Source: Myxococcaceae bacterium JPH2 (GTDB taxonomy: Bacteria > Myxococcota > Myxococcia > Myxococcales > Myxococcaceae). Taken from it: a stretch of DNA of 64,000 nucleotides. This document shows, in pieces, positions 43,391-59,729 of the stretch. Under the pieces are notes generated by a model. The model saw only the letters and a list, made by a program, of their open reading frames with translations. It ran no database searches and had not been told where the DNA came from. Position 1 is the stretch's first letter. Each line of letters starts with the position of its first letter. The stretch covers positions 372,001 to 436,000 of the forward strand of contig JAEMGR010000009.1 in assembly GCA_016458225.1 (NCBI GenBank). The letters are read 5' to 3'. The position numbers and the translations under genes were made by a program.

Positions 43391-44518
43391 ATGAAGCTCG
43401 CCACGGCAGTCGTCCACGCAGGCGTCCGGCGCGATCCCTCCACCGGCGCGGTCGCCGTCCCCATCTACCAATCCGCCACCTTCCAGCACCCGGCGCTCGG
43501 CCAGTCCACCGGCTACGACTACTCTCGCACGCGCAACCCCACGCGCTCCGCGCTGGAGGAGGCCATCGCTCGACTGGAGGGTGGCAGCCGCGGCCTGGCC
43601 TTCTCCTCGGGCATGGCGGCCATCCACTGTGCGCTACAGCTGCTCGGCCCCGAGGACCATCTCGTGCTGACCGAGGACCTCTACGGCGGGACGTATCGGC
43701 TCGTGGAGAACATCCTCCATCGGCGATGTACGTACGTCGACACCAGCCGCCCCGAGGCGGTGCGCGCGGCCCTGCGCCCCAACACGCGGGCCGTGCTGGT
43801 GGAGTCCCCCACCAACCCGGTGATGCGGACGGCGGACATCCCGGTCCTCGCGAACCTCGCGCACGAGACAGGCGCGCTGCTCATCGTGGACAACACGTTC
43901 CTCACCCCCTGTCTCCAGCGTCCGTTGGAGCTGGGCGCGGACCTGGTGGTCCACAGCGCGACCAAGTACCTGTCCGGCCACAACGACGTCGTCGCCGGCG
44001 CGCTCGTCGCGAAGGACGCGGCGCTCGGTGAGCGACTCGCGTACTTCCAGAACGGCATCGGCGCCATCCTCGGGCCGCAGGACTCCTATCTCGTCATTCG
44101 CGGCCTGAAGACGCTCGCGCTGCGCATGGAGCGACATCAGGCCAACGCGCGCGAGGTGGCCGGTTGGCTCGCCTCCCATCCGCTCGTGGAGCGCGTCTTC
44201 TATCCGGGCGTGGGCGGCATGTTGTCCTTCACCGTCACCGACACGGCGCTCGTGCCGCAGGTGCTCTCTTCCGTGCGCCTGTGTCTCTTCGCCGAGTCGC
44301 TCGGTGGCGTCGAGACGCTCATCACCTATCCAGCCACCCAGACGCATGCCGACATCCCCGCGGCGCGCCGCGAGGAGCTGGGAATCACTGACCGACTGCT
44401 GCGCCTCTCCGTGGGAATCGAGGACGTCCATGACATCATTGCCGACCTTTCCGAAGCGCTCGCCGGAGCCCACACGTTGCGAGAGCTTCGCCACGCGCCT
44501 CTTGCACACGGGTCATGA
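43391..44518 (+). CDS. metI: Cystathionine gamma-synthase/O-acylhomoserine lyase (MetI-like)
   Basis: A 375-residue PLP enzyme of the Cys/Met metabolism family. It would condense an acylated homoserine with cysteine or sulfide. SSGMAAIHCALQ near 78 binds the cofactor phosphate, the aspartate strand is LIVDNTFLTP, and the PLP Lys is in HSATKYLSGHNDV near 191. The C-terminal FAESLGGVETLITYPATQTH is close to Bacillus MetI, as is the shortened loop before GGMLSF that longer cystathionine synthases have. AAGGAG precedes the ATG by 6 nt. It overlaps the following paralogue by 89 nt. Confidence 0.88.
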   Translation: MKLATAVVHAGVRRDPSTGAVAVPIYQSATFQHPALGQSTGYDYSRTRNPTRSALEEAIARLEGGSRGLAFSSGMAAIHCALQLLGPEDHLVLTEDLYGGTYRLVENILHRRCTYVDTSRPEAVRAALRPNTRAVLVESPTNPVMRTADIPVLANLAHETGALLIVDNTFLTPCLQRPLELGADLVVHSATKYLSGHNDVVAGALVAKDAALGERLAYFQNGIGAILGPQDSYLVIRGLKTLALRMERHQANAREVAGWLASHPLVERVFYPGVGGMLSFTVTDTALVPQVLSSVRLCLFAESLGGVETLITYPATQTHADIPAARREELGITDRLLRLSVGIEDVHDIIADLSEALAGAHTLRELRHAPLAHGS

Positions 44519-45584
44519 GCTAGACCCGACGACGGGCGCGGCGGCCGTGCCCATCTACCAGGTGTCGATGTTCGATCAGCCGAGCCTGGAGCAGCCCGGC
44601 GAGTTCGACTACGCGCGCTCGGGGAACCCCACACGCCGGGCCCTCGAGGGCGTGCTCGCGAGCCTCGACGAGGCCGCGGGAGCGTTCGCGTTCGGCTCGG
44701 GCATGGCGGCCGTCTCCACCGTGCTGATGCTCTTCAGCGCGGGCGATCACCTCGTCGTCACCGATGACTGTTACGGCGGCACCTATCGCGTGCTCACACG
44801 GGTGTTCCGGCGCTTCGGGCTGGACGCCACCTTCGTGGACACGAGCAACCCGGCGGCGGTGCGCGCCGCGATCCGCCCCAACACGCGCGCGCTGCTCGTG
44901 GAAACGGTCAGCAACCCGTTCCTCAAGCGCACGGACGTCCCCGCCATGGCGGAGATCGCCCACCAGCACAAGGCGCTACTCATCGTCGACAACACGTTCT
45001 TGTCGCCCTACCTGTCGCGCCCGCTCACCGAGGGAGCGGACATCGTCGTGCACTCCGCGACGAAGTACCTGGGTGGGCACAGCGATGTCGTCGCGGGCTC
45101 GGTGGCGGTGAGGACCCCGGCGCTCGCCCAGGAGGTCTACTTCCTCCAGAACGCAGTGGGCGCGGTGCTTGGGCCCCAGGACTGCTTCCTCCTTCAGCGC
45201 GGCATCAAGACGCTGCAGGTGCGGATGGAGCGGCAGGTGCGCACGGCCTCGGCGTTGGCGCAGTGGCTCGCCGAGCGGCCCGAGGTGCGCGAGGTCTTCT
45301 ATCCCGACACGGGCGCGGTGGTGACGTTCCGGCTCGCGCGCGACGCCATGGCCGCGCCGTTCGTGCAGAACCTGCGGCTGCCGCTGCTCGGCGTCTCGCT
45401 GGGCGCGGTGGAGAGCATCGTCACGGTGCCTGCTCGCCACTCGCATGCCTCCGTGCCAGCGGCCGAGCGAGAGCGCCGCGGAATCACCGAGGGCCTCATC
45501 CGCTTCTCCGTGGGGCTGGAGGACCTGGGTGACCTGAGCGAAGACCTGGCCCTCGCCTTCGAGGCCGCGCGTCATGTCGTGTGA
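44430..45584 (+). CDS. metC: Cystathionine beta-lyase-like PLP enzyme (MetC-like)
   Basis: A 384-residue paralogue of the preceding gene, with GSGMAAVSTVLM, LIVDNTFLSPYLSRPL and the PLP Lys in HSATKYLGGHSDV near 211. It has the same shortened C-terminal loop (FYPDTGAVVTF). In Bacillus the MetI-MetC pair performs cystathionine synthesis and cleavage, and this arrangement suggests the same. The start is an ATG with GAGGAC 5 nt upstream, lying inside the upstream gene, so the two genes overlap by 89 nt in different frames. The encoded N-terminal ~17 residues are unrelated to the family and may be dispensable. Confidence 0.85.
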   Translation: MTSLPTFPKRSPEPTRCESFATRLLHTGHELDPTTGAAAVPIYQVSMFDQPSLEQPGEFDYARSGNPTRRALEGVLASLDEAAGAFAFGSGMAAVSTVLMLFSAGDHLVVTDDCYGGTYRVLTRVFRRFGLDATFVDTSNPAAVRAAIRPNTRALLVETVSNPFLKRTDVPAMAEIAHQHKALLIVDNTFLSPYLSRPLTEGADIVVHSATKYLGGHSDVVAGSVAVRTPALAQEVYFLQNAVGAVLGPQDCFLLQRGIKTLQVRMERQVRTASALAQWLAERPEVREVFYPDTGAVVTFRLARDAMAAPFVQNLRLPLLGVSLGAVESIVTVPARHSHASVPAAERERRGITEGLIRFSVGLEDLGDLSEDLALAFEAARHVV

Positions 45585-45600
45585 TGAACAGGGCGGGGCA

Positions 45601-45629
45601 TTGACAGCCGCGAACTCCACAGGCAACGT
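45601..45629 (+). promoter_or_regulatory. Candidate promoter of the sulfate-uptake leader
   Basis: A perfect TTGACA (45601-45606) is followed after 17 nt by CAACGT (45624-45629), a weak -10. Initiation would fall near 45636, only a few nt before the leader ATG at 45640, which would make that reading frame nearly leaderless. Confidence 0.5.
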
Positions 45630-45639
45630 GATGACGCTC

Positions 45640-45717
45640 ATGCGAATCCCCACCACCACCCTCGCCTCGTGTTGCTGTCAGGCACCTTGGGTGGGCGTGT
45701 GTCCGCCGGTGGCCTGA
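45640..45717 (+). CDS. Cysteine-rich leader peptide of the sulfate-uptake operon
   Basis: A 25-residue frame: MRIPTTTLASCCC, then QAPWVGVCPPVA. Three adjacent Cys codons (TGT TGC TGT at 45670-45678) and a fourth at 45700 are far above chance in such a short frame. In-frame ATG 45631 and GTG 45628 are alternative starts. CCCACC (45649-45654), just before the Cys codons, can pair with GGTGGG within GGTGGGC (45690-45696), just after them. GGTGGGC also pairs perfectly with the 5' arm of the terminator downstream. This is the layout of a ribosome-stalling attenuator that senses charged Cys-tRNA. The peptide itself probably has no function. Confidence 0.82.
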   Translation: MRIPTTTLASCCCQAPWVGVCPPVA

Positions 45718-45740
45718 GCGCTATCGGCTGAGCTGACACG

Positions 45741-45773
45741 AAAGCCCACCCCCGGAAGGGAGGTGGGCTTTTG
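45741..45773 (+). terminator. Attenuator terminator before the sulfate-uptake genes
   Basis: AAAGCCCACC (45741-45750) pairs perfectly with GGTGGGCTTT (45762-45771), with an inner CCC/GGG and a GGAA loop, followed by TTTT. Its 5' arm contains GCCCACC (45744-45750), the perfect complement of GGTGGGC at 45690-45696 in the leader, so antiterminator and terminator exclude each other. It lies 65 nt before the porin start. Confidence 0.88.
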
Positions 45774-45837
45774 AGTTTCCAGGACCGGATCTCACCCACC
45801 GCCCCTTCGCTGCCCCGTCTCGTCACGAGGTCAACGA

Positions 45838-47118
45838 ATGGCATCCACGACGCGCTACGCAATCCCTCTCGTCCTGGGAGGACTCCTCTCCCCGCTCAGT
45901 TCCCACGCCGAAGGCGACACGCCCGAGGCCCCACCCGCGGTCACCGTCCAAGCAGGCGCGGACGGCTTCACCCTCACCTCCGCCGACAAAGCCTTTCAGC
46001 TCAAGCTGCGCGGCTATCTCCAGACAGACGGCCGCTTCTTCGCGAGCAAAGCGGACAAGCCCGGCTCCACCACGTTCCTAATCCGACGCGCGCGGCCCAT
46101 CGTGGAGGGCACCCTCTTCGGCGCGTTCGACTTCCGCCTGATGCCGGACTTCGGCGCCGGGACGGTGCAGCTCTTCGACGCCTACCTGGACTTCCACCCC
46201 GCCAAGGAGGCGCGGCTGCGCGCGGGCAAGTTCAAGCCGCCCATCGGACTGGAGCGGCTCCAGAGCGCGACGAACACGGTCTTCATCGAGCGTGCGCTCC
46301 CCACGGACCTGGTGCCCAATCGGGACGTGGGTCTGCAAGTCCACGGTGAGCTGCACGGTGGCGTGCTCGCCTACGCGCTGGGCGCGTTCAATGGCACGCC
46401 AGACGGAGCCAGCGTCGATGCCAACCTGGATGACAGCTTCGACGTGGCCGCGCGCGTGTTCGCCCAGCCCTTCCGCGCGGGCGGCCCGAGCGTCCTGAAG
46501 GGACTCGGGGTCGGCTTCGCCGCATCACAGGGACAACAGTTCGGTGCCACGGCGAGCACGGGTGTCGCGCCGCTGCGCACGCCAGGACAGCAGACCTTCT
46601 TCAGCTACCGCACGGGCGCGCTGGCCGATGACACCGTCATCGCCCACGGAGACCACTTCCGCCTCTCGCCACAGGGTTACTTCTACGCGGGCCCGGTGGG
46701 TCTGCTGGCCGAGTACGTTTCATCCACGCAGGCAGTCAGTCGAGGTCCGGCACGCGCGAGGCTCCGCAACCAGGCCTGGCAGGTCACCGCGAGCGCGGTG
46801 TTCCTAGGCGGCGCGCCGTCCTTCGAGGGCGTGCGCCCCACGCATCCCCTGCATCCCTCGGAAGGAGCCTGGGGCGCGGTCGAGCTGGCGGGCCGCTATC
46901 ACACGCTGAACGTCGACGCCGACGCGTTCCCGCTCTACGCGGATCCGAACAAGGCCGCTCGCGCCGCGCGGAGCTGGGGCCTCGCGGCCAACTGGTACCT
47001 CAACGCCAACGCGCGCCTCGCCGCCGACTTCGACCGCACCACCTTCGACGGTGGCGCTCCAGACGCGGACCGGACACCGGAGTCCGTCTTCCTCTCTCGC
47101 TTCCAGCTCAGCTGGTGA
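45838..47118 (+). CDS. Outer-membrane porin of the OprO/OprP (phosphate-selective) family
   Basis: A 426-residue porin with a signal peptide cleaved near SSHA|EGDT. The family features are a FQLKLRGYLQTDGRFF opening, FLIRRARPIVEGTLFGAFDFRLMPDF near 80-105, a LRAGKFKPPIGLERLQS block, and a terminal strand SVFLSRFQLSW ending in Trp. OprO/OprP porins pass anions; position directly before sulfate ABC genes and behind a Cys attenuator suggests sulfate rather than phosphate here. GAGG lies 8 nt before the ATG. It is the first gene of the uptake operon. Confidence 0.85.
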   Translation: MASTTRYAIPLVLGGLLSPLSSHAEGDTPEAPPAVTVQAGADGFTLTSADKAFQLKLRGYLQTDGRFFASKADKPGSTTFLIRRARPIVEGTLFGAFDFRLMPDFGAGTVQLFDAYLDFHPAKEARLRAGKFKPPIGLERLQSATNTVFIERALPTDLVPNRDVGLQVHGELHGGVLAYALGAFNGTPDGASVDANLDDSFDVAARVFAQPFRAGGPSVLKGLGVGFAASQGQQFGATASTGVAPLRTPGQQTFFSYRTGALADDTVIAHGDHFRLSPQGYFYAGPVGLLAEYVSSTQAVSRGPARARLRNQAWQVTASAVFLGGAPSFEGVRPTHPLHPSEGAWGAVELAGRYHTLNVDADAFPLYADPNKAARAARSWGLAANWYLNANARLAADFDRTTFDGGAPDADRTPESVFLSRFQLSW

Positions 47119-47133
47119 AAGGCCGTGCCCCCC

Positions 47134-48162
47134 ATGCATCCACGCCACGTCTTGCCGCTCCTCTTGCTGCTCTCGCTCGGCGGCTGCTCCAAGGCCGGGG
47201 GCGACGGCTCCAGCGCGGAGACGGTCACGCTGCTCAACGTGTCCTATGACCCGACCCGCGAACTCTACGAAGACTTCAACACCGCGTTCGCGAAGCACTG
47301 GGAAGCAAGCCAGGGGCGGAAGCTCACGGTGCAACAGTCGCACGGCGGATCCGGCAAGCAAGCGCGGGCCGTCATCGATGGACTGGAGGCCGACGTCGTG
47401 ACGCTCGCCCTCGCGTACGACGTGGACATGCTCCACGACAAGGCGAACCTCCTCCCGACGGACTGGCAGACCCGCTTGCCGAACAACAGCGCGCCCTACA
47501 CCTCCACCGTCGTGTTCGTGGTCCGCAAGGGCAACCCCAAGAACATCCGCGACTGGGACGACCTCACGCGCGACGGCATCTCCGTCATCACGCCCAACCC
47601 CAAGACGTCAGGGGGCGCGCGATGGAACTACCTCGCGGCGTGGGGCTATGCGCTGCGCAAGCCGGGCGGCACCGAGGACTCGGCTCGGGCCTTCGTGTCG
47701 CGCCTCTTCAAGAACGTCCCCGTGCTCGACTCGGGCGCGCGGGGCTCCACCACCACGTTCGCGGAGCGCGGCCTGGGCGACGTGCTCATCGCCTGGGAGA
47801 ACGAAGCCCTCCTCCTCACCCGTGAGGTGGGAAAGGAGCGGTTCGACATCATCGCGCCCTCGGTGAGCATCCTGGCCGAGCCGCCCGTCGCGCTGGTCGA
47901 CCGCAACGTGGACAAGCGCGGGACGCGCGCGGTGGCCGAGGCCTATCTGCGCTACCTCTACTCGGACGAAGGACAGGAGATCGCCGCGCGACATCACTAC
48001 CGGCCGCGCTCGCAGACGGTGGCGGCGAAGCACGCCCAGGACTTCCCCGCCGTCACCCTCTTCACCATCGACGAGGCGTTCGGCGGCTGGCGCAAGGCGC
48101 AGAAGGCCCACTTCGACGACGGCGGGGAGTTCGACCGTCTCGCCGCGGCCCAGGCCCGGTGA
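47134..48162 (+). CDS. sbp: Sulfate-binding lipoprotein of ABC importer
   Basis: A 342-residue solute-binding protein. [18 protein letters not shown] is a lipoprotein signal with lipobox LGGC. The Sbp/CysP family pattern follows: [17 protein letters not shown] at 34-50, [17 protein letters not shown], a [10 protein letters not shown] block, [20 protein letters not shown] and [17 protein letters not shown]. It captures sulfate or thiosulfate for the permease encoded next. The ATG is preferred over a GTG three codons upstream because it gives a compact signal peptide. Most bacterial Sbp proteins are soluble in the periplasm; here it is lipid-anchored. Confidence 0.92.
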
Positions 48163-48172
48163 GCCCCACGCC

Positions 48173-49012
48173 ATGAGCACGTCCGCGCGCAGACGCATCC
48201 TCCCCGGCTTCGGATTGTCGCTGGGAATGACCTGGGCCTGGCTCGGCCTGCTGGTCATCGTTCCCCTCTCCGGCCTCGTCCTCCAGAGCCTCAACCTGTC
48301 GTGGGAGCGGTTCTGGGAGACCGTGGCGTCGCCTCGCGCGTTCGCGGCCTATCGCTTGAGCTTCGGCGCATCCCTCGCGGCGGCGCTCATCAACGCGATC
48401 TTCGGACTGCTCGTGGCCTGGGTGCTCGTGCGCTACCGCTTCCCGGGCCGAGCGTGGGTGGACGCGTTGGTGGACCTGCCCTTCGCGCTCCCCACGGCGG
48501 TGGCCGGGCTGACGCTGACCACGCTCTACGCCTCACATGGCGCCTATGGGCGGTACCTGGAGGCGCTGGGCCTGAAGGTGGCTTTCACCCCGCTGGGCGT
48601 GGCCATCGCGCTGACCTTCATCGGCCTGCCCTTCGTCGTGCGCACGGTGCAGCCCGTGCTGGAGGACCTGGATCCCGAAGTGGAGGAAGCCGCGACGACG
48701 CTCGGCGCGACGCCCTGGCAGACGTTCTCGCGCGTCGTCTTTCCCCACGTGCTCCCGGCCCTCCTCAGCGGTTTCACCCTCGCGTTCGCGCGAGCGCTGG
48801 GTGAGTACGGCTCCATCGTCTTCATCTCCGGCAACATGCCGCTGCGCACGGAGATCGTCCCGCTGCTCATCGTCACGCGGCTGGAGCAGTACGACTACGC
48901 GGGCGCCACCGCGCTCGCGCTCGTGATGCTCGTCACGTCGTTCACGCTCCTGCTGACCGTCAACCTCCTCCAGCGCTGGAGCCAACGTCGGCTCGAGTCG
49001 CGCCCCGGGTAG
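48173..49012 (+). CDS. cysT: Sulfate ABC transporter permease CysT
   Basis: A 279-residue inner-membrane permease with six predicted helices and the BPD signature EEAATTLGATPWQTFSRVVFP near 168-188, which contacts the ATPase. The PTAVAGLTLTTLY block near 105-117 is typical of CysT (CysU). It pairs with the CysW encoded next. It starts 10 nt after sbp. Confidence 0.93.
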   Translation: MSTSARRRILPGFGLSLGMTWAWLGLLVIVPLSGLVLQSLNLSWERFWETVASPRAFAAYRLSFGASLAAALINAIFGLLVAWVLVRYRFPGRAWVDALVDLPFALPTAVAGLTLTTLYASHGAYGRYLEALGLKVAFTPLGVAIALTFIGLPFVVRTVQPVLEDLDPEVEEAATTLGATPWQTFSRVVFPHVLPALLSGFTLAFARALGEYGSIVFISGNMPLRTEIVPLLIVTRLEQYDYAGATALALVMLVTSFTLLLTVNLLQRWSQRRLESRPG

Positions 49013-49015
49013 CCC

Positions 49016-49864
49016 ATGCACGTCGCCCCCTTCACGCCACGCCATGCGACCCGCATGCTCGCGAGCCCGGCCCTCTTGAAGTGGGGGCTCATCGCGACGG
49101 CGCTCGCCTTCCTGGGTGTGTTCCTCTTCGTCCCGCTGATCGCCGTCTTCTCGTATGCCTTTCAGAAGGGCCTGGCCGCCTGGTTCGCGGCCATCCGCAC
49201 GCCCGAGTCACTCGCGGCCATCCGACTGACCCTCACCGCCGCGCTCATCGCGGTCCCCGTCAACCTCGTCTTCGGGCTGGCCGCCGCCTGGCTCATCGCG
49301 CGCTTCCAGTTCCCCGGGCGCGCGCTGCTCCTCACGCTGATCGACTTGCCGTTCAGCATCTCGCCGGTCATCGCGGGCCTCCTCTTCGTCCTCCTGTTCG
49401 GTCGGCATGGAGGACTGGGCCCGTGGCTCATCGAGCACGGCCATCCCGTCCTCTTCGCGGTGCCCGGCATCGTGCTGGCCACGGTCTTCATCACCTTCCC
49501 CTTCGTGGCCCGCGAGGTGTTGCCCGTCCTGCAAGCGCAAGGCTGCGACGAAGAGGAAGCCGCGCTGACCCTGGGCGCGAGCGGCTGGCGCACGTTCCTG
49601 CGAGTCACCATTCCCAAGGTGAAGTGGGGCGTGCTCTACGGCGTCATCCTCTGCAACGCGCGCGCGATGGGCGAGTTCGGCGCGGTGTCCGTCGTCTCCG
49701 GCCACGTGCGCGGCGTGACGACCACGCTGCCGCTGCACGCGGAGATTCTCTACAACGAATACGACTTCGTCGGCGCGTTCGCCGTGGCCTCGCTGCTGAC
49801 CCTGCTCGCGCTCGTCACGCTCGTCATCAAGAAGTACGTGGAATGGAGGGCTGACGCCCCATGA
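49016..49864 (+). CDS. cysW: Sulfate ABC transporter permease CysW
   Basis: A 282-residue second permease. Six helices, the DLPFSISPVIAGLLFVLLFGR block and the ATPase contact loop EEEAALTLGASGWRTFLRVTIP near 181-202 are characteristic. The ending VIKKYVEWR is common in CysW. It begins 3 nt after the cysT stop and overlaps cysA by 4 nt. Confidence 0.93.
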   Translation: MHVAPFTPRHATRMLASPALLKWGLIATALAFLGVFLFVPLIAVFSYAFQKGLAAWFAAIRTPESLAAIRLTLTAALIAVPVNLVFGLAAAWLIARFQFPGRALLLTLIDLPFSISPVIAGLLFVLLFGRHGGLGPWLIEHGHPVLFAVPGIVLATVFITFPFVAREVLPVLQAQGCDEEEAALTLGASGWRTFLRVTIPKVKWGVLYGVILCNARAMGEFGAVSVVSGHVRGVTTTLPLHAEILYNEYDFVGAFAVASLLTLLALVTLVIKKYVEWRADAP

Positions 49865-50925
49865 GTGTCATCGTCGAACACCTGACCAAGCACTTCACGC
49901 GGAGCCACCTCCCCGCCGTCGCGGACGTGTCGTTTCGCGCGCCCACGGGAGCCATCACCTCGCTCCTGGGCCCGTCCGGCGCGGGAAAGTCCACCCTGCT
50001 CCGCCTGATCGCGGGCTTGGAGATCGCGGACGCGGGAGCCATCCACATCGACGGCGTGGACTGTACGGGGCTCCCCGCGCAGCAGCGCGGCGTGGGCGTC
50101 GTGTTCCAGAGCTACGCGCTGTTCCGTCACATGACGGTGCGCCAGAACATCGCGTTCGGCTTGGAGCTGCGGCGCCTCCCCCGGGCACAGGTGACCGCTC
50201 GCGTGGAGGAGATGCTCGCGCTCGTGCAGTTGGATGACCTGGGAGAGCGCCTCCCGGGCCAGCTCTCCGGCGGACAACGCCAGCGCGTCGCGTTCGCCCG
50301 AGCACTCGCCATCCAACCGCGCTTGCTCCTGCTCGACGAACCCTTCGGCGCGCTCGACACCCGCGTCCGCGTGGAGCTGCGCGAGTGGCTGCATGCCCTG
50401 CATGTCCGCACCGGCATCACCACGCTCCTCGTCACGCATGACCAAGAAGAAGCCCTGGAGATCTCCCAGCACGTGGTCGTGATGTCGGGAGGACAGGTCG
50501 CGCAGGCCGGTCCACCCGAGGACATCTATGACCGGCCGACCACCCCGTTCGTCGCCTCCTTCGTCGGAGGCACCAGCATCCTGCGAGGTCGGGTGCGCGA
50601 GGGCCGCGCCGAGATGGGCTCGCTCGTGGTGAGCGCCCCCGAGGCAGCCCGCGAGGGCGAGCCCGTGCACGCCTTCGTGCGCCCCCATGACATCAAGCTC
50701 GCGAGGACGCCGAATGGAATCAGACATCCCGAAGGAGCCAGCCGCGTGCAACGCCTGAAGCCCGTGGGGGGCTACGTGAAGGTGCTCCTGCGACTGCCCA
50801 CCGGCGACGAGCTGGCCGTCGAGGTCCCTCGCTCGGAGTTCGAGGCGCTGGGCGTGGTCGAAGGAGACTCGGTGCTCGCGGATGTCCGAACCGCGCGTGT
50901 CTTTGTTGGCGACTACGCCATCTGA
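49861..50925 (+). CDS. cysA: Sulfate ABC transporter ATPase CysA
   Basis: A 354-residue ATPase with Walker A GPSGAGKST near 37-45, Q-loop VVFQSYALFRHMTV, signature [15 protein letters not shown] near 136-150, Walker B LLLLDEPFGALD and the switch His in VTHDQEEALE. A C-terminal TOBE domain with HAFVRPHDIKL follows, typical of CysA. It completes the importer and is the last gene of this unit; no terminator is apparent before the cysH leader promoter. Confidence 0.94.
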   Translation: MSVIVEHLTKHFTRSHLPAVADVSFRAPTGAITSLLGPSGAGKSTLLRLIAGLEIADAGAIHIDGVDCTGLPAQQRGVGVVFQSYALFRHMTVRQNIAFGLELRRLPRAQVTARVEEMLALVQLDDLGERLPGQLSGGQRQRVAFARALAIQPRLLLLDEPFGALDTRVRVELREWLHALHVRTGITTLLVTHDQEEALEISQHVVVMSGGQVAQAGPPEDIYDRPTTPFVASFVGGTSILRGRVREGRAEMGSLVVSAPEAAREGEPVHAFVRPHDIKLARTPNGIRHPEGASRVQRLKPVGGYVKVLLRLPTGDELAVEVPRSEFEALGVVEGDSVLADVRTARVFVGDYAI

Positions 50926-50952
50926 GCGGCCATGCACCGCACCGTCCCCACA

Positions 50953-50982
50953 TTGACGAAGCGCAAGTGATGAACGTACTTT
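50953..50982 (+). promoter_or_regulatory. Candidate promoter of the cysH leader
   Basis: TTGACG (50953-50958) and TACTTT (50977-50982) are 18 nt apart, 28 nt after the cysA stop. Initiation would fall near 50989-50991, at the ATG of the first Cys-rich frame, which would then be leaderless. Confidence 0.5.
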
Positions 50983-50990
50983 GCTTGCCG

Positions 50991-51077
50991 ATGCCTTCCT
51001 CCACTCCGACCGCCGCGCCGTGCTGCCGCCGCTGCTGTCGGATGTGTCGCTGTGCCCTTCCGGGCGCGTGGCACTGA
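50991..51077 (+). CDS. Cysteine-rich leader peptide 1 of the cysH operon
   Basis: A 28-residue frame starting MPSSTPTAAPCCRR and continuing CCRMCRCALPGAWH; six Cys codons lie between 51021 and 51053. An in-frame ATG at 50970 would add seven residues including one more Cys. Its core CCRMC recurs in the next leader frame and is encoded by an identical 13-nt stretch TGTCGGATGTGTC (51036-51048). A hairpin at 51063-51107 overlaps its stop, but no T-run follows, so any control here may be through Rho or coupling to the second leader. Function as a Cys sensor is inferred. Confidence 0.72.
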   Translation: MPSSTPTAAPCCRRCCRMCRCALPGAWH

Positions 51078-51214
51078 GCAAGCATCCTCTGCGCCACACC
51101 TCGCGCCTGACTCCCTGGCCCGCCTCGCACCGAGGTGAGGTCCGTCTTCAGTCCTCGCCTCCGCTGTCCTCGCCATTCATGTCCTCCACGCCGTCACACG
51201 CCTCTCGCACCGCC

Positions 51215-51319
51215 ATGACAGACCTCTCGGTCGTCGTGGGCCGTGGGGCGGGCGCGTGTTGGGCCTGTTGTCGGATGTGTCCGCCTCCTGGCGGGCGCCG
51301 AGCAGCGGGGAGTGCGTAA
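51215..51319 (+). CDS. Cysteine-rich leader peptide 2 of the cysH operon (attenuator leader)
   Basis: A 34-residue frame, MTDLSVVVGRGAGA, then CWACCRMCPPP and an Arg/Gly-rich end. Cys codons are at 51257, 51266, 51269 and 51278. CCGCC (51281-51285), touching the last Cys codon, pairs with GGCGG (51290-51294). The overlapping GGCGGGC (51290-51296) is the perfect complement of GCCCGCC (51353-51359) in the terminator's 5' arm. A ribosome stalled on the Cys codons would cover the first segment and free the second to block the terminator. In-frame starts exist further upstream; none has a clear ribosome site. Confidence 0.78.
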   Translation: MTDLSVVVGRGAGACWACCRMCPPPGGRRAAGSA

Positions 51320-51350
51320 CCACCTCTTCCCGACCCCTGTCCTGCTTGCG

Positions 51351-51390
51351 CGGCCCGCCCTCGGAAACCTCCGAGGCGCGGGCCGTTTCG
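51351..51390 (+). terminator. Attenuator terminator before cysH
   Basis: CCTCGGA (51359-51365) pairs with TCCGAGG (51370-51376) over an AACC loop. Below one bulged C, CGGCCCGC (51351-51358) continues with GCGGGCCG (51378-51385). TTTCGTTCT follows. It ends about 20 nt before the cysH start, leaving room for the AAGGAG ribosome site. Confidence 0.85.
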
Positions 51391-51411
51391 TTCTGTCCAA
51401 AGGAGTCCCCG

Positions 51412-52158
51412 ATGTCCGCGGTTCGTCCTGTCCCCGTCGAAACCACAGTCTCCGAAGAGGAGCTGCTCGCCACGGGCACCTCGCTCGCGAGCGCTCCCGC
51501 CGAGGAGGTCCTCTCGTGGGCCGAGCACCGCTTCGGCGCGCGGGCGGTCATCGCCACCAGCTTCGGCCCCGAGGACATGGTCCTGGTGGACATGTCGCGC
51601 CGGCATGCACGGAGCCTGAAGCTGCTCACGCTCGACACCGGCCGCCTCCCACCGGAGACCTATGAGCTGATGGAGGTGGTGCGCAATCGCTACGGCGTCA
51701 CGGTGGAGACGTTCTTCCCCGACCACGCGCGCTTGGAGGCCCTCCAGTCCGAGCATGGCCACTTCTCCTTTCGCAAGAGCGTCGAGGCGCGGAAGGAATG
51801 CTGTGCGATTCGCAAGGTCGAGCCATTGCGGCGCGCGCTCGCGGGGCGGCTCGCCTGGGTGACGGGACTGAGGCGCGATCAGTCCTCCAACCGCGCCGAT
51901 GTCTCCGTGCTGTCTGTCGACAGAGAGCACGGCGGGCTCCTCAAGCTGAGCCCCTTGGCCAGTTGGACCGCGCGCGACGTGTGGACCTACCTGCGCGAGC
52001 ACGGCGTCCCCTACAACCCGCTCCACGATCGCGGCTACCTGTCCATCGGCTGCGCGCCCTGCACGCGCGCGGTGAAGCCCTTCGAGGATGAGCGCGCGGG
52101 CCGGTGGTGGTGGGAGTCCGCCGAGCACAACGAGTGCGGCATCCATGCGCGGCGCTGA
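51412..52158 (+). CDS. cysH: Assimilatory adenylyl-sulfate (APS) reductase, [4Fe-4S] type
   Basis: A 248-residue CysH-family reductase that releases sulfite from activated sulfate. The P-loop-like substrate site is TSFGPEDMVLVD near 43-54 and the catalytic Cys is in ECGIH near 243. The two Cys pairs that mark iron-sulfur APS reductases are present: CC at 130-131 followed by RKVEPL, and CAPC at 214-217. Classical PAPS reductases lack them, so APS is the likely substrate. AAGGAG lies 6 nt before the ATG. It is the first gene of the reduction operon and sits just after the attenuator. Confidence 0.92.
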   Translation: MSAVRPVPVETTVSEEELLATGTSLASAPAEEVLSWAEHRFGARAVIATSFGPEDMVLVDMSRRHARSLKLLTLDTGRLPPETYELMEVVRNRYGVTVETFFPDHARLEALQSEHGHFSFRKSVEARKECCAIRKVEPLRRALAGRLAWVTGLRRDQSSNRADVSVLSVDREHGGLLKLSPLASWTARDVWTYLREHGVPYNPLHDRGYLSIGCAPCTRAVKPFEDERAGRWWWESAEHNECGIHARR

Positions 52159-52162
52159 AGCC

Positions 52163-52801
52163 ATGGACTATCCCGTGTGCTTGAGACTGGAGGGCCGGCC
52201 CGTCCTCGTGGTGGGCGGCGGGCCCATTGCCGAGGGGCGGATCCTCGCGCTGCTCGAGGCGGGAGCGCGCGTGAGGCTCGTGTCGCCCGAGGCCACCGGC
52301 GCGTTGCAGCAGCTCGCGAAGGCCGAGCGACTGGAGTGGGTGCGGCGAAGGTGGAACCCCGGCGACACGCGCGGCCACGCGCTGGTGCTCACCGCGGTTG
52401 ATGACACGCGCGTGAGCCAGGCGGTGGCGGACGAAGCGCGCTCGCTCGGCATCTGGCTGAACACGGCGGATGAACCCGCGGCGTGTGACTTCACGCTGCC
52501 GTCGGTGGGGCGACGCGGTGCCATCACCGTGGCGGTCTCCAGCACAGGACAAGCCCCCGCGCTCGCCGCCGCGCTTCGGCGCGAGCTGATGACGCAGGTG
52601 ACGGTCCACCACGTGCGACTCGCTCGGCTGAGCGGGTGGCTGCGGCGACGACTGCCGCGAGGACCCACCCGGCAGCGCCTGCTGCGGCTGTTGGTGGACG
52701 GAGACATTGGCGCGCTCCTGGCCCAAGGCCAGCGCCGGGCCGCATGGGCCCGCGTGCGCGAGGAACTGAACGACCGAGAAGCACGGAGACAGACGACATG
52801 A
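52163..52801 (+). CDS. Precorrin-2 dehydrogenase/sirohydrochlorin ferrochelatase-like
   Basis: A 212-residue protein matching the N-terminal part of CysG (Met8p family), which oxidises precorrin-2 and may insert iron to make siroheme. MDYPVCLRLEGRPVLVVGGG shows the NAD-binding site; ADEPAACDFTLPSVGRRGAITVAVSSTGQAPALA near 95-130 is the family block (written here as a pattern). GAAG precedes the ATG; another ATG six codons earlier lies within cysH. It overlaps the methyltransferase gene by 4 nt. Siroheme is the cofactor of CysI encoded downstream. Confidence 0.88.
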   Translation: MDYPVCLRLEGRPVLVVGGGPIAEGRILALLEAGARVRLVSPEATGALQQLAKAERLEWVRRRWNPGDTRGHALVLTAVDDTRVSQAVADEARSLGIWLNTADEPAACDFTLPSVGRRGAITVAVSSTGQAPALAAALRRELMTQVTVHHVRLARLSGWLRRRLPRGPTRQRLLRLLVDGDIGALLAQGQRRAAWARVREELNDREARRQTT

Positions 52802-53592
52802 GAGGCACGACAGAGGGACAGGTGTATCTGGTGGGAGCGGGTCCAGGAGACCCGGGACTGCTCACCCTTCGAGCGGCCCAGGTGCTCGCGGCCGCGGACA
52901 CCGTGGTGCATGACCGGTTGATCCACCCGGGGGTGCTCGCCCATGCGCGGGCGCGGGCGCGGCTCATCTACGTGGGCAAGGAGGGCCATGGTCCTTCCGT
53001 GCGGCAGGAGGACATCCACTCGGTGCTCATCGCGCAGGCACGGCTGGGCCGCGCGGTGGTGCGTCTGAAGGGAGGCGATCCGTTCGTCTTCGGGCGCGGC
53101 GCGGAGGAGGCACTCGCGCTGGAGGCCGCGGGCATCGCCTACGAGGTCGTTCCCGGCGTCTCCAGCGGCATCGCGGCGGCCTCGGCGGCGGCCATCCCCG
53201 TCACGCATCGGGGGCTGTCCGGTGCCGTGACCTTCGCCACCGCGCACCGCGCCGAGCGCACCACGGACTGGGCGCACCTCGCGGGCGCGGAGACGCTGGT
53301 CCTCTTCATGTCGGGGCGCAGGTTGGAGGAGGCCTCGCGCGAGCTGATCCGCGCGGGCAAACCGGCCTCGACGCCGGCCGCGGTCGTGGAGGCGGGCACC
53401 TGGGAGCACCAGCGCGTGGTCGAGGCTCCGCTCGCCATCGTGGCGACCGAAGCGCGTCAGGCAGGCCTCGGCTCGCCCTCCTTGCTCGTCGTGGGAGAGG
53501 TGGTGTCCCTCCGCTCGCGACTGCCGTCCCTGGCAGCGCGCCGCACATCGACGCGCGAGCCCCGCATCGCGAACGCGGGAGGCCGGTCATGA
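52798..53592 (+). CDS. cobA: Uroporphyrinogen-III C-methyltransferase (SUMT)
   Basis: A 264-residue SAM-dependent methylase making precorrin-2. [18 protein letters not shown] opens the domain, followed by [23 protein letters not shown] near 82-96 and [22 protein letters not shown] near 118-139. All are diagnostic of SUMT. With the preceding gene it forms a split CysG. The start overlaps that gene by 4 nt, and its stop overlaps cysD by 4 nt. Confidence 0.93.
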
Positions 53593-54506
53593 GCACGGCC
53601 ACCACCCCAAAAGCTTCGCACCTGGCGGACCTGGAAGCGGAGAGCATCCACATCCTTCGAGAAACGGCGGCGGAGTTCGCCAACCCGGTGATGCTCTACA
53701 GCATCGGGAAGGACTCCCAGGTGCTGCTGCATCTGGCGCGCAAGGCCTTTCATCCCGCGCCCCTGCCCTTCCCGCTCCTCCACGTGGACACGACGTGGAA
53801 GTTCCGCGAGATGTATGCGTTTCGAGATGCGTTCGTGGCGCAGCATGGCCTGCGCCTGCTCGTGCACCAGAACCGCCGCGCATTGGCCGAGGGCATCAAT
53901 CCCTTCGACCACGGCAGCCAGAAATACACCCACGCGATGAAGACGCAGGCGCTCCTGGAGGCGCTGGCGATGCACGGCTTCGACGCGGCCTTCGGCGGAG
54001 CGCGGCGGGACGAGGAGAAGTCGCGCGCGAAGGAGCGGGTCTTCTCCTTCCGCGATCGCCACGGGCAGTGGGACCCGCGGCGCCAGCGCCCGGAGCTGTG
54101 GAACCTCTACAACGGGCGCGTGGACGCGGGCGAGAGCATGCGCGTCTTCCCGCTGTCGAACTGGACGGAGCTGGATGTCTGGCTCTACGTCCTCCAGGAG
54201 CGCATCCCCGTGGTGCCGCTCTACTTCGCGGCCGAGCGACCCGTCATCGAGCGCGGCGGCGCGCTGCTCATGGTGGATGACGAGCGCATGCGGCTGAAGC
54301 CAGGCGAGCGCGTGCAATCCCGCCGCGTCCGCTTCCGCACGCTGGGCTGCTACCCGCTCAGCGGCGCCATCGAGTCCTCCGCCACCACGGTGGAGGCAGT
54401 CATCCACGAAATGCTCTCCGCGCGCCAATCCGAACGGCAGGGCCGACTCATCGATCACGACGAAGAGGGCTCCATGGAACTCAAGAAGCGCGAGGGCTAC
54501 TTCTAA
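53589..54506 (+). CDS. cysD: Sulfate adenylyltransferase small subunit CysD
   Basis: A 305-residue ATP sulfurylase subunit that forms APS from sulfate and ATP. The PP-loop motif [14 protein letters not shown] is near 37-50, with [12 protein letters not shown] and the R-rich block [17 protein letters not shown] near 135-150. The C-terminal SAT...KKREGYF ending is conserved. It is the catalytic half; GTP hydrolysis by CysN, encoded next, drives it. Its stop overlaps the cysN start by one base (TAATG). Confidence 0.95.
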
Positions 54507-56218
54507 TGGACACCGCACGACTGGCCAGTCCCGCCCCTACCCTGCAGCAACTCTTCGCCGAGCATGGACGCAAGGAGTTGCTCCGGCTCGCCGTGGTTGG
54601 CTCCGTCGATGACGGCAAGTCGACCCTCATCGGTCGTCTCCTCTACGAGTGCGACGGACTGTTCGAGGATCAAATCCTCGCGGTCCGCCGAGCGAGCGCG
54701 AAGCGCGCGGCCACCGCGCGGCAGACAGGCGCCGCCCACGAAGCAACGGCCGGCGAGGAGATCGACTTCTCACTCTTCACGGATGGCCTGCGCGCCGAGC
54801 GTGAGCAGGGCATCACCATCGACGTGGCCTACCGCTACCTGTCCACGGCGCGGCGGAAGATCATCGTCGCGGACACGCCGGGACACCTCCAGTACACGCG
54901 CAACATGGCCACGGGCGCCTCCACGGCGGACGCGGCCGTCATCCTGGTGGATGCGCGGCTCGGAGTGCTCGCGCAGACGCGGCGGCATGCGTACATCGCC
55001 TCCCTGCTGGGCATCCCCTACCTGGCCGTGGCCGTGAACAAGATGGACAAGGTGGACTTCGATCGCGCCACCTTCGAGCGCATCGGCTCCGAGCTGGAGC
55101 ACTTCGCGCGAACGCTGGGCTTCGAGCAGGTGCGCCTCTTCCCGGTGAGCGCGAGCCAGGGAGACAACATCACCCGCACCAGCGCGCGAACCCCCTGGCA
55201 TGAAGGCGGCACGCTCCTGTCCTGGCTCGAAGCCCTGCCACGCCAGTCTCCCCAAGCGCCGCAGACCCTCCGCTTCCCCGTGCAGTACGTGCTGCGTCCT
55301 CACCTGGACTATCGCGGCTTCGCGGGGCAGATCGCCTCCGGCACCATCCGGGTCGGAGACGAAGTTCGGGTCGCGCCCTCCGGACGCACGACGCACGTCG
55401 CGGGCATCGACACCTTCGACGGCTCCTTGAGCGAGGCCTCCGCGCCCGCCTCGGTCACGCTCCGGCTCGCGGACGAAGTGGATGTCAGCCGAGGTGACGT
55501 GCTCACCCACGTCGACCAACCCCCGCTCGCCCTGCATCAACTCGACGCGATGCTCGTCTGGTTTGGCGAACAGCCCCTGGACTGCTCCCGCAGATACCTG
55601 GTGAAACACACCAGCCGCACCGTGCCCGCGCACATCGAGCAGGTCGTGTGGCGCAAGGAATTGGAGGACCTGTCCGAGGTCCCCGCGGAGACCCTGGCGC
55701 TCAATGAGATGGGACGGGTCCGAGTGCTCTGCCGCCGTCCGTTGCTCGCGGATGCCTACCGCGGCAATCGCCGCACGGGCGCCTTCATCGTCATCGACCC
55801 GCTGACCCAGGACACGGTGGCGGCCGGAATGATTCTCGGGGCCTCCGAGACGACCTCGGGCAACGCGCACGCACACTCGCTCGTCACGTCCTCGGAGCGG
55901 CGGAATCGCCTCGCGCAGCGCGGTGGCGTCATCCTCCTGCCGAGCGGCCCCGACACGCGGGTGCACGCTTATCAGCTCGAGCGCGCCCTCTTCGATGCGG
56001 GGCGCCACGTGGCCGTGGCCGGTGAGGACTCCGAGGCGGCGCTCGCACTCGCCGGCGCCGGCCTCTACGCCATCGTGCATCCGTCCGCACCGCAGGCGCG
56101 ACGCGCGCTCCGGGGACTCGCCCGTGACGCGGAGGTCTCCTGGTTCGAGGCCGTCGCTGACGGAACTCCCGAGCAATGGATCCAAGCCATCGTCGGCACC
56201 GAGGAGCGTGCGTCGTGA
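54506..56218 (+). CDS. cysN: Sulfate adenylyltransferase large subunit CysN with degenerate APS-kinase tail
   Basis: A 570-residue protein. Residues 1-450 are a translation-factor-like GTPase with G1 GSVDDGKST (32-40), DTPGH near 123 and NKMD near 178, plus two beta-barrel domains. The last ~110 residues resemble the CysC APS kinase of fused CysNC proteins (SLVTSSERRNRLAQRGG near 458; LERALFDAGRHVAVAG). The kinase P-loop GLSGSGKST is replaced by PSGPDTRVH and the domain is about half the usual length. APS kinase activity is therefore very unlikely. This matches the APS-type CysH, which needs no PAPS. Confidence 0.9.
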   Translation: MDTARLASPAPTLQQLFAEHGRKELLRLAVVGSVDDGKSTLIGRLLYECDGLFEDQILAVRRASAKRAATARQTGAAHEATAGEEIDFSLFTDGLRAEREQGITIDVAYRYLSTARRKIIVADTPGHLQYTRNMATGASTADAAVILVDARLGVLAQTRRHAYIASLLGIPYLAVAVNKMDKVDFDRATFERIGSELEHFARTLGFEQVRLFPVSASQGDNITRTSARTPWHEGGTLLSWLEALPRQSPQAPQTLRFPVQYVLRPHLDYRGFAGQIASGTIRVGDEVRVAPSGRTTHVAGIDTFDGSLSEASAPASVTLRLADEVDVSRGDVLTHVDQPPLALHQLDAMLVWFGEQPLDCSRRYLVKHTSRTVPAHIEQVVWRKELEDLSEVPAETLALNEMGRVRVLCRRPLLADAYRGNRRTGAFIVIDPLTQDTVAAGMILGASETTSGNAHAHSLVTSSERRNRLAQRGGVILLPSGPDTRVHAYQLERALFDAGRHVAVAGEDSEAALALAGAGLYAIVHPSAPQARRALRGLARDAEVSWFEAVADGTPEQWIQAIVGTEERAS

Positions 56219-58044
56219 CGACGTCTTCACGCGCGGAGCTGTCACGCCTGGGGCCACCTCCCGTCATCACCAGCCGACTCGGCGCGGATCAAGGAGCACT
56301 GCTCCTCCAGTTGTTGGAGGGCATGGACGCCCCCGGACTCCAGTGGCTGAGCGGCTACGCGGCGGGGCTCGCCTCGGGCCGCACGGGGCTCGCGGCGGCC
56401 CCATTCCCCGCTCCCACTCCCACCGGGCACCTCGCGCTCGTCTATGGCACGCAGACGGGCAACAGCCGCCTCCTGGCCGAGCGACTCAAGTCACAAGCAG
56501 AGGCGCATGGCGTCGCGGTCCGCCTGTTTCGCGCAGGCGAATACCCACTTCGAGAGCTGAACAAGGAGCGGGTGCTGTGTGTGGTCATCAGCACGCAGGG
56601 CGATGGAGATCCGCCCGACGACGCACGAGGCTTCTACGACTTCATCCTGAGTCGCCGCGCGCCCCGGCTGGAGTCCCTGCGCTTCGCCGTGCTCGCGCTG
56701 GGCGACTCGTCGTATCCGAAGTACTGCGAGACCGGCCGGATCCTCGACGCTCGACTCGCGGAGCTGGGCGCCACCCGCCTGCTCGAACGCGCGGACTGCG
56801 ACGTGGACTTCGAGCCGACCGCCACCGGCTGGCTCGCGCGCACGCTCGAGCTGACGCGCGAGGCACTCGCTCCCGCCGAGCCCCGCGCGGAGGTCGTCCC
56901 CCTGCGCGGCGTCACCCTCGCGCCCGCGCATGGCCGCGAGGCGCCGTTCGCCGCCGAGGTCCTGGTCAACCAGCGCATCACCGGCCGTGGGGCACTCAAG
57001 GATGTGCGCCATCTGGAGTTGTCGCTCGCGGGCTCGGGCCTCACGTATGAGCCCGGGGACGCGCTCGGAGTCTGGCCCCGCAATCCTCCAGGACTGGTCA
57101 CGGACGTGTTGAGCGCGCTCCGCCTGGATGCCGAGGCGCCTGTCACGCGGGACGGACGGACGCTCCCGCTCACGCAATGGCTCACGGAGGAGCTGGAGAT
57201 CACCCGCCTCTCGCGCTCCTTCCTGGAGCGCCACGCAGCGCAGCCCGGCGGAGAGTCATTGCGGCCCTTGCTGACGCCCGAAGGCGCCAGCGGACTCCGC
57301 GCCTTGCTCACCAGTCATCAGGTCATCGACCTCGTGCGAGCCCACCCCGTGTCCTGGCGCGCGGAGGAGCTGGTGCAGGCCCTGCGGCGACAGACGCCGC
57401 GGCTCTATTCCCTGGCATCGAGTCAGCGCAGCGTCGGCGACGAGGCCCACCTCACGGTGGCGATCGTCGACTACCTGGCCTTCGGCACCGCGCACGTGGG
57501 GGCCGCATCGTCCCACCTCGCCACGCGGGTCCCGGGAGAGGACAAAGTGCGGCTCTTCATCGAGCCCAACCCACGCTTCCGCCTGCCCAGCGACCCCCAG
57601 CGTGACGTGATCATGGTTGGCCCCGGCACGGGCGTGGCCCCCTTCCGCGCCTTCGTCCAAGAGCGAGCGCAGCTTGGCGCGACGGGGCGCAACTGGCTCT
57701 TCTTCGGCGAGCAACACCGACGCAGCCAGTTCCTCTATCAGACGGAGTGGCAGGAGGCGCTCGACGCGGGCACGCTGCATCGGCTGTCCGTCGCCTTCTC
57801 CCGAGATCAGGAGCAGAAGGTCTACGTCCAGCATCGCCTGCGCGAGCAGGGCCGAGAGCTGTACGCCTGGCTGGAGGGAGGCGCGTCGCTCTACGTGTGC
57901 GGCGAGGCCCAGCGCATGGCCCCGGACGTCCACGCGGCCCTCCTCGACATCCTGATGACTCACGGAGGCAAGGGCCGCGACGACGCGGAGGCCTACCTCC
58001 AATCCTTGCGCGAACAGCAGCGCTACCAACGCGACGTCTACTGA
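56215..58044 (+). CDS. cysJ: Sulfite reductase flavoprotein alpha subunit
   Basis: A 609-residue diflavin reductase. The FMN flavodoxin domain carries YGTQTGNS near 77-84, FAD-binding RLYSLASS lies near 396-403, and the NADPH site [12 protein letters not shown] near 468-479. A C-terminal [16 protein letters not shown] ending matches CysJ. It passes NADPH electrons to CysI. The start is a GTG overlapping the cysN stop by 4 nt with GAGGAG 8 nt upstream. Length is close to the E. coli protein. Confidence 0.93.
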
Positions 58045-58058
58045 ATGCGAGCCACGAC

Positions 58059-59729
58059 ATGAGTTCCCCCTCTCAACCCCTCTCGGAGGTCGAGCACACC
58101 AAGGCTCGAAGCAACCTCCTGCGCGGAACCCTGACCGAGAGCCTCGCGAATCCACTCACGGGCAGCCTCGCCACCAGCGACACCCAGCTCCTCAAGTTCC
58201 ACGGCAGCTATCAGCAGGACGACCGGGAGCTTCGCGAGGAGCGCCGACAGCAGAAGCTGGAGCCCGACTACAGCTTCATGATTCGCACGCGCCTGCCCGG
58301 CGGAGTCTGCACTCCCGCCCAATGGCTCGCACTGGACGCACTGGCGCGCGAGCACGCCAACGGCACCTTGCGCCTCACCACCCGCCAGGCCTTCCAGCTC
58401 CACGGTGTCTTGAAAGAAGACCTCCAGCCCACCCTGGCGCGCATCCATCAGACCTTGCTGGACACCATCGCCGCGTGCGGCGACGTGAACCGCAACGTGA
58501 TGTGCAATCCCAACCCCGTGGACTCGCATCTCCACGCGGAGGTGCATCAATGGGCGGTGCGCTTGTCGGAGCACCTGCTCCCTCGGACGCGCGCATACCA
58601 TGAAATCTGGCTGGGCGAAGAGAAGGTCGCGGGCGGCGAGGAGGAGCCCATCTATGGCGCCACCTACCTGCCCCGGAAGTTCAAGACCGCCATCGCCGTG
58701 CCCCCGCTCAACGACGTGGATGTGTTTGCCCATGACCTGGGCTTCATCGCCATCCTCGAGGCGGGGCGGCTGGCGGGCTTCAACGTGACGGTGGGCGGCG
58801 GCATGGGCGCGACCCACGGCGACGCGGCCACCCATCCCCGACTGGCGGATGTCATCGGCTTCATCCCGCCCGAGCAACTCCTCGCGGTGGCGGAGCAGGT
58901 CGTCACCGTGCAGCGCGACTTCGGCGACCGGTCCAATCGCAAACATGCGCGCCTGAAGTACACGGTGGAGGACCGAGGCGTGCCCTGGTTCACCGCCGAG
59001 TTGGAGCGAAGGCTGGGCTTCCGCCTGGAGCCCGCACGCCCATTCCACTTCGAGCACAACGGAGACCGGTTCGGCTGGACCGAGGGCCACGACGGGACGT
59101 GGCACCTCACCCTTCAACTCGACAGCGGGCGCGTGGCGGATGTGCCGGGCGCCTCGCGGCTGACGGGCATGCGCGAGGTGGCGCGCATCCATCGGGGCGA
59201 CTTCCGCCTCACCGCCAACCAGAACGTCATCATCGCCCGTGTCGCGCCCGAGGACCGCCCCGCCATCGAGGCGCTCGTGACGGCCCACGGGCTCGATGAC
59301 TTCCGGAAGGCCAGCCCGCTGCGACGCGACGCGCTGGCCTGCGTGGCGCTGCCCACCTGCGGTCTCGCGATGGCCGAGGCCGAGCGCTACCTGCCGCGCA
59401 TCGTGCCGCTGCTGGAGGAGCGGCTGCGCGCCCATGGCCTGGAGGGAATCCCGCTCCACCTGCGCATCACCGGCTGCCCCAATGGCTGCGCCCGCCCCTA
59501 CGTCGCGGAGGTGGCGCTCGTGGGCAAGGCGCCCGGGCGCTACAACCTGCTCCTGGGTGGCGACCGCCGCGGGCAACGGCTCAATCGCCTGTACCGCGAG
59601 AACATCGACGAGCCGGCCATCCTCGCCGCGCTCGACCCGCTGTTCGCCGCCTATGCGCGCGACCGAGCGCCACAGGAGGGCTTCGGGGACTTCGTCGTCC
59701 GCGCGGGCCTGCTCAAGTCGGCCATCTGA
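58059..59729 (+). CDS. cysI: Sulfite reductase hemoprotein beta subunit
   Basis: A 556-residue siroheme/[4Fe-4S] enzyme reducing sulfite to sulfide. The four cluster Cys are at 428, 434, 473 and 477 (C-x5-C and TGCPNGC), spaced as in E. coli Cys[12 protein letters not shown] near 108 and [13 protein letters not shown] near 147 bind siroheme and substrate. It starts 14 nt after cysJ and is the last gene of the reduction operon. Confidence 0.94.

Follow-up and report, generated by a model that had tools for sequence, protein, structure and literature searches.

In enteric bacteria, the trp and his operons are controlled by ribosome-mediated transcription attenuation. In mycobacteria, Cys-codon leaders are found before sulfur genes and come without terminators, according to the available text of Seliverstov 2005 (PMC1262725) and Shell 2015 (PMC4633059). 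The former places the Cys codons near the end of the ORF and, in the portion available, gives no conserved terminator. Polycysteine leaderless uORFs of mycobacteria are attributed to Canestrari 2020 in the accessible passages of PMC9031893, PMC9094748 and PMC13236596. The uORFC-8-2 motif of Rhodobacterales, located before cysS, combines two tandem Cys codons with an intrinsic terminator, and attenuation was predicted for it in the text available (PMC8632094). The mgtCBR operon of Salmonella is preceded by tandem leader attenuators responding to two signals, ATP and proline, and was called a singular example in the accessible part of the report (PMC3641672). The string Myxococc- does not occur in the available part of a survey of premature terminators (PMC2965389), and no cysteine attenuator in myxobacteria was found in the open-access papers searched. 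Ribosome-mediated attenuation and Cys leaders are, as kinds, already known.

The locus described here is a Cys-codon leader before a sulfate-uptake operon of a Myxococcaceae bacterium. It resembles the trp and his attenuators in the end-product codons of its leader ORF, in the mutually exclusive antiterminator and terminator, and in the predicted stall site just before segment 2, the 5' arm of the antiterminator. It differs from them in the amino acid, which is cysteine, in a probably leaderless start, in a covarying apical hairpin within the antiterminator and in the two serial leaders found before cysH. With the mycobacterial uORFs it shares a short ORF, here of probably leaderless type, a Cys run and the sulfur-assimilation genes behind, but here an intrinsic terminator (37/37 leaders) and a conserved antiterminator are present, in a Gram-negative phylum. 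The order of a Cys-codon uORF and an intrinsic terminator is also that of uORFC-8-2. That motif, however, belongs to the cysteinyl-tRNA synthetase of alphaproteobacteria, with two Cys codons and a single leader, whereas sulfate uptake and cysH are concerned here. The succession of two short leader ORFs ahead of a single operon, as seen in 30/51 cysH genomes, recalls mgtCBR, although both cysH leaders are Cys-rich, unlike the two different signals of the Salmonella operon. What looks new is the intrinsic-terminator Cys switch on sulfate assimilation, combined with a probably leaderless start and with tandem leaders for which one and the same signal is expected. Cysteine would thereby gain classical intrinsic-terminator attenuation on sulfate assimilation, of which no description for the phylum was found in the open-access papers searched.

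The window, i.e. the whole stretch of 64,000 nucleotides that was analysed, comes from a genome of 8.99 Mb, and the promoters, leaders, hairpins and operons reported for it lie on the + strand. A putative promoter was located at 45601-45629, with TTGACA (45601-45606), a 17-nt spacer and a weak -10 hexamer (CAACGT, 45624-45629), and the ATG follows 10 nt on. The leader ORF (45640-45717, ATG at 45640 and TGA at 45715-45717) encodes MRIPTTTLASCCCQAPWVGVCPPVA in 25 codons. An earlier note on this DNA had proposed such a frame with three consecutive Cys codons, and reading of the sequence confirmed it (TGT TGC TGT, 45670-45678). The four pairing segments it named were also found in place: CCCACC at 45649-45654, GGTGGGC at 45690-45696 (segment 2), GCCCACC at 45744-45750 (segment 3) and GGTGGGC at 45762-45768 (segment 4). 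Segments 3 and 4, followed by TTTT at 45769-45772, make up an intrinsic terminator (45741-45772). The first gene of the operon, a porin O/P family gene (45838-47118, PF07396), starts 63 nt past the terminator hairpin and may encode a sulfate-related outer-membrane channel. Behind it lie the genes for the sulfate-binding protein (Sbp, 47125), CysT (48173), CysW (49016) and a CysA-like ATPase (49861), spanning 47125-50925, in agreement with the sulfate import that had been assigned to this operon. The CysA C-terminal domain is present in the ABC ATPase. No Rfam family reached its gathering score in 44500-47000 or 50900-51500; the top score was 24.4 bits for sbcD RNA, whose cut-off is 40, and a search at E <= 1 gave zero matches.

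It is proposed, with a probability of roughly 0.86, that this leader is a ribosome-mediated transcription attenuator sensing charged Cys-tRNA, which probably turns the sulfate-uptake genes on at cysteine shortage. A run of end-product codons, an intrinsic terminator before the first gene and a conserved, exclusive antiterminator are all present. The terminator region (45738-45772) folded with -25.4 kcal/mol (z -5.3), and 0/200 shuffles were equally good. For the antiterminator region (45683-45751) the values were -37.4 kcal/mol and z -3.6, with 1/200 shuffles equally good. Covariation was evaluated on an alignment (A5) of 37 distinct leaders. The terminated form 3:4, as previously drawn, holds across this alignment: 98.6% of cells were paired, three pairs had changed on both sides, and the covariation score was reached by 0/500 shuffles, a control that ignores relatedness. 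Pair 121-133 of this helix, for example, is UA in 18, CG in 17 and UG in 2 of the leaders.

The antiterminator 2:3, formerly seen as a 7-bp match, pairs in 100% of cells, most of its pairs being invariant, but it is longer than 7 bp and encloses an apical hairpin (45705-45728, with 45705-45711 paired to 45722-45728). The covariation of this hairpin was 0.403, versus 0.184 after shuffling that ignores relatedness (0/500 shuffles). Its pair 74-91 occurs as AU (18), CG (9) and GC (9), and one of its seven pairs, 76-89, is open in 32/37 leaders. Compensatory changes were thus found in the terminator and in the apical stem of the antiterminator. The pairing of CCCACC, taken as segment 1, with segment 2 did not survive comparison, as the best upstream partner of segment 2 varies by genome among the 37 leaders. 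The conserved partner is instead GTCCGCC (segment 2', 45701-45707), a putative anti-antiterminator which pairs with segment 2 in the window fold. The resulting GGTGGGC-N4-GTCCGCC (45690-45707), with its 4-nt loop, is present in 37/37 leaders. For this local hairpin, 96.5% of cells were paired, with zero double changes and one pair open in 9/37. RNAalifold on the alignment indicated that segment 2 is also pairable with the Cys codons. When the partners were slid by 1-3 columns, pairing dropped to 20-66% for helices 3:4, 2:3, 2:2' and the apical one. The leader carries mutually exclusive helices, and these are conserved.

The reading frame of segment 2 is GCG GTG GGC in genus g23 and CGG TGG GCG in g12. 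Given this difference between genera, it is the RNA, and not the peptide, that is conserved. The spacing from the Cys run to segment 2 was 10-14 nt in 37/37 leaders (11 nt after the last Cys codon in the window), approximately what a stalled ribosome would need, given the size of its footprint, to leave segment 2 free. A poor U run was observed behind the leader of G008.

A match to the sulfate-binding protein was obtained in 49/96 genomes of the family. A homologous, alignable Cys leader was found upstream of the operon in 37 of these 49, all distinct, and each was followed by the terminator hairpin. It was present in 27/27 genomes of g23 (a Myxococcus/Pyxidicoccus-type genus), 2/2 of g1, 5/5 of g8 with Sbp and 3/4 of g12. 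Alignment across relatives, which the earlier note had named as a check on the Cys codons and covarying stems, gave a positive outcome for these leaders. Outside g23 the leaders were collected by searching for Cys codons, so that their Cys content is not independent evidence. Within g23, TGT-TGC-TGC-TGT was kept in 27/27 genomes, synonymous sites included; the codons 2 to 7 places ahead of the run vary. The N-terminal half of the leader peptide, Cys apart, is not conserved. Regarding Cys codon use, TGC 32 vs TGT 8 was counted in 14 window genes, and TGT 91 vs TGC 68 in the 37 leaders.

A search with a promoter-ATG-four-Cys pattern matched 33/145 Myxococcales genomes, and the reversed pattern matched 4; this and the homologues in 37/49 genomes exceed what chance would give. 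A pattern with three Cys codons was rejected as too loose, since it matched in the majority of genomes, with many of the matches evidently falling within other genes. A contig scan for Sbp matches yielded at least 80 loci, at least 2 of them titled as myxobacterial. Among the matches listed, with the Pyxidicoccus locus excluded, an ORF containing CCC, CCxC or CxCC lay up to 1.9 kb upstream of Sbp in 9/79, which indicates that Cys-cluster ORFs alone do arise by chance.

Relatives that keep the operon and lose the Cys codons had been regarded in the earlier note as evidence against its proposal. Ten Sbp genomes are of this kind, with no recognisable Cys leader (G012, seven genomes of g15/g16, G019 and G006), against the 37/49 in which the leader is kept. 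In the seven g15/g16 genomes, Sbp is located far inside a long cysH-cysI-sbp operon, and the head of that operon shows no clear poly-Cys leader. Among the 49, G066 has a short candidate leader, MGSPRCRCRRRPA, outside the alignment, and the Sbp match of G065 is weak and partial. Upstream of sbp in G012 (L216) the promoter and a terminator-like hairpin are kept and the leader ORF with its Cys codons is lost, which looks like a deletion between the two GCCCACC-type repeats. In the 16 genomes of g26, neither an Sbp match (0/16) nor cysH at E <= 1e-60 (0/16) was obtained, so that this genus seems to be without this sulfate assimilation route.

The distance from TTGACA to the ATG was found to be 39, 40 or 41 nt in 10, 21 and 6 of the 37 leaders, respectively, and a Shine-Dalgarno-like string ahead of the ATG was present in 1/37. 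Ordinary promoter geometry would place the RNA start at the ATG or only a few bases away from it. Given this spacing, the mRNA of the uptake leader is probably leaderless or nearly so. The -10 hexamers of the leaders, including the weak CAACGT of the window, are poor matches to the sigma-70 consensus. A leaderless start, if probable as it seems, would explain how ribosomes are loaded in time for attenuation.

From these features we infer the start site, the stalling, the read-through and the signal as follows. Transcription would start just upstream of ATG45640, and the ribosome would load on a 5' end with little or no untranslated leader. With ample Cys-tRNA, it would pass the Cys codons, reach the stop at 45715 and cover the distal antiterminator. 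Segment 2 would then be held by 2', the 3:4 terminator would form and transcription would end near 45772. A shortage of Cys-tRNA would make the ribosome stall at 45670-45678, and the local hairpin could not hold segment 2. The latter would then pair with segment 3, enclosing the apical hairpin, so that the polymerase would read into porin-sbp-cysT-cysW-cysA. On the sequence evidence, the attenuator interpretation of the earlier note is supported. Since Myxococcus relatives are tractable, the prediction could be quickly tested.

A cysteine-responsive leader could also act through translation coupling or Rho instead of an intrinsic terminator. This has been proposed for mycobacteria, whose Cys leaders have no conserved terminator in the available text of PMC1262725 and are described as translation attenuation in that of PMC13236596. 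In the present leaders, however, the terminator hairpin occurs in 37/37 with compensatory change, and the first gene begins 63 nt beyond it, which makes such a mechanism distinctly unlikely. The position of the hairpin, between the Cys/Met-metabolism PLP gene that precedes the leader region (44304-45584) and the porin gene, would agree with an ordinary terminator of this upstream metabolic gene, the Cys run being a chance occurrence. This explanation is barely credible, since the PLP gene was upstream in 2/48 loci examined, leader and hairpin persist without it, and the invariance of the Cys codons in 27/27 genomes of g23 already contradicts chance.

Cys clusters bind metals, which would fit a trans-acting role of the 25-residue peptide, such as that of a small protein that binds metals or is redox-active. 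Leader peptides with functions in trans have a precedent in peTrpL (available text of PMC7298713), but the unconserved N-terminal half and a C-terminal half that lies in another frame in g12 leave very little room for such a role. Attenuation might also be real and respond to the state of translation more generally, as set by the stringent response, redox damage or overall elongation rate. The controlled genes, however, serve to take up and reduce sulfate and encode cysteine synthase, and a general signal of this type is considered very improbable.

Attenuation by charged Cys-tRNA, the preferred reading, could apply as well to sulfate reduction, as an equivalent layout made of different sequences (CCGCC / GGCGGG / GGCCCGCC) is present before cysH and, in some relatives, also before a second cysK. 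In the window, cysH starts about 0.5 kb beyond the uptake operon. The sulfate reduction operon (51412-59729) comprises cysH, identified by a family model, and what are presumably, from their translations, sirohaem/SUMT genes, cysD, cysN, cysJ and cysI. Its putative promoter is located at 50953-50982 (TTGACG 50953-50958, TACTTT 50977-50982). Two Cys-rich leader ORFs, starting at 50991 and 51179 and missed by the earlier note, lie before cysH. Leader A (50991-51077) encodes MPSSTPTAAPCCRRCCRMCRCALPGAWH with 7 Cys. Leader B (51179-51319), whose start codon is uncertain, begins with M and ends in ACWACCRMCPPPGGRRAAGSA. The layout of leader B is classical, with CCGCC (segment 1, 51281-51285) right after the Cys codons, GGCGGG (within segment 2, GGCGGGC, 51290-51296), GGCCCGCC and an intrinsic terminator at 51350-51388 (segment 3, CGGCCCGCC, 51351-51359; -34.4 kcal/mol, z -4.8). 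The region 51270-51396 folded with -71.9 kcal/mol (z -5.2). Leader B lacks both a promoter and a recognisable ribosome-binding site of its own.

At a threshold of E <= 1e-60, cysH was detected in 51/96 family genomes. Both leaders were present in 30/51 (27/27 of g23, both of g1, and G004) and a single leader in G008 and G028, giving a Cys leader in 32/51. By a strict hairpin-plus-U criterion, a terminator follows leader A in 14/30 genomes, the window not among them. The remaining 19 cysH genomes include G062, which is cut by a contig end. In G003 a leader, MSAFASSCCCCCACPVRALAGREPVTSA, heads an operon of a sulfite reductase-like gene, cysH, cysD and cysN. The cysH promoter region and a terminator-like hairpin were kept in G060, G061 and G063, with the Cys run lost, and no Cys leader was found in the stretches read from the other cysH genomes of the 19. 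Leader B of G004 (L368/L054) contains 12 consecutive Cys codons made of TGC repeats, possibly a grown trinucleotide repeat.

Because leaders A and B are both Cys-rich, the same signal is expected for the two. Same-signal tandem leader-peptide attenuators would, if true, be a new arrangement, and such a serial gate before cysH would sharpen the response. The tandem leaders offer a clean test of the effect of two same-signal attenuators on the response curve.

A second cysK (TIGR01139) was found in seven g23 genomes, and in 7/7 it is preceded by a leader of the MSLPLPTTGAQCCCC(C)RVACAC(C)CLAG type with the same kind of terminator. No Cys-rich leader was seen in the stretches fetched for the canonical cysE-cysK operons of G000, G103 and G023. 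A tentative extension, given slightly less than an even chance, is that cysteine assimilation in Myxococcaceae forms a regulon of leaderless or nearly leaderless Cys-tRNA attenuators, with one for uptake, two same-signal ones in series for sulfate reduction and one for the duplicated cysK.

In a scan of the phylum, the four-Cys pattern matched 39/195 genomes, six of them outside the family (G153, G158, G168, G181, G183 and G192), of which G158 was looked at further. This distant member of the Myxococcota shows TTGACA-17-TATAAA, the leader MIARLCCCCCRNNPDLC, an ORF that looks porin-like on visual comparison with the porin of the window, and an Sbp 70% identical to that of the window. As with the porin gene at 45838-47118 of the window, this ORF is flanked by the poly-Cys leader on one side and Sbp on the other. 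In G009, a genome without an Sbp match, a leader MPFTSATCCCCLCRAACRAVSEGASVHA and a GC-rich hairpin were observed before an ATP-grasp-like gene (L298, 5634-6915, minus strand; PF02786, weak).

In g8 and g12, the -35 element of the sbp operon is immediately preceded by a palindrome resembling an operator, TCCGYTATARCGGA or a close variant of it. In g15/g16 the palindrome lies near cysH, and it is absent from the window. The loci concerned are L029, L030 and L034, plus those of G060, G061, G062, G083, G084 and G012 (upstream of TTGACA). This suggests a second, transcription-factor layer of control in those genera.
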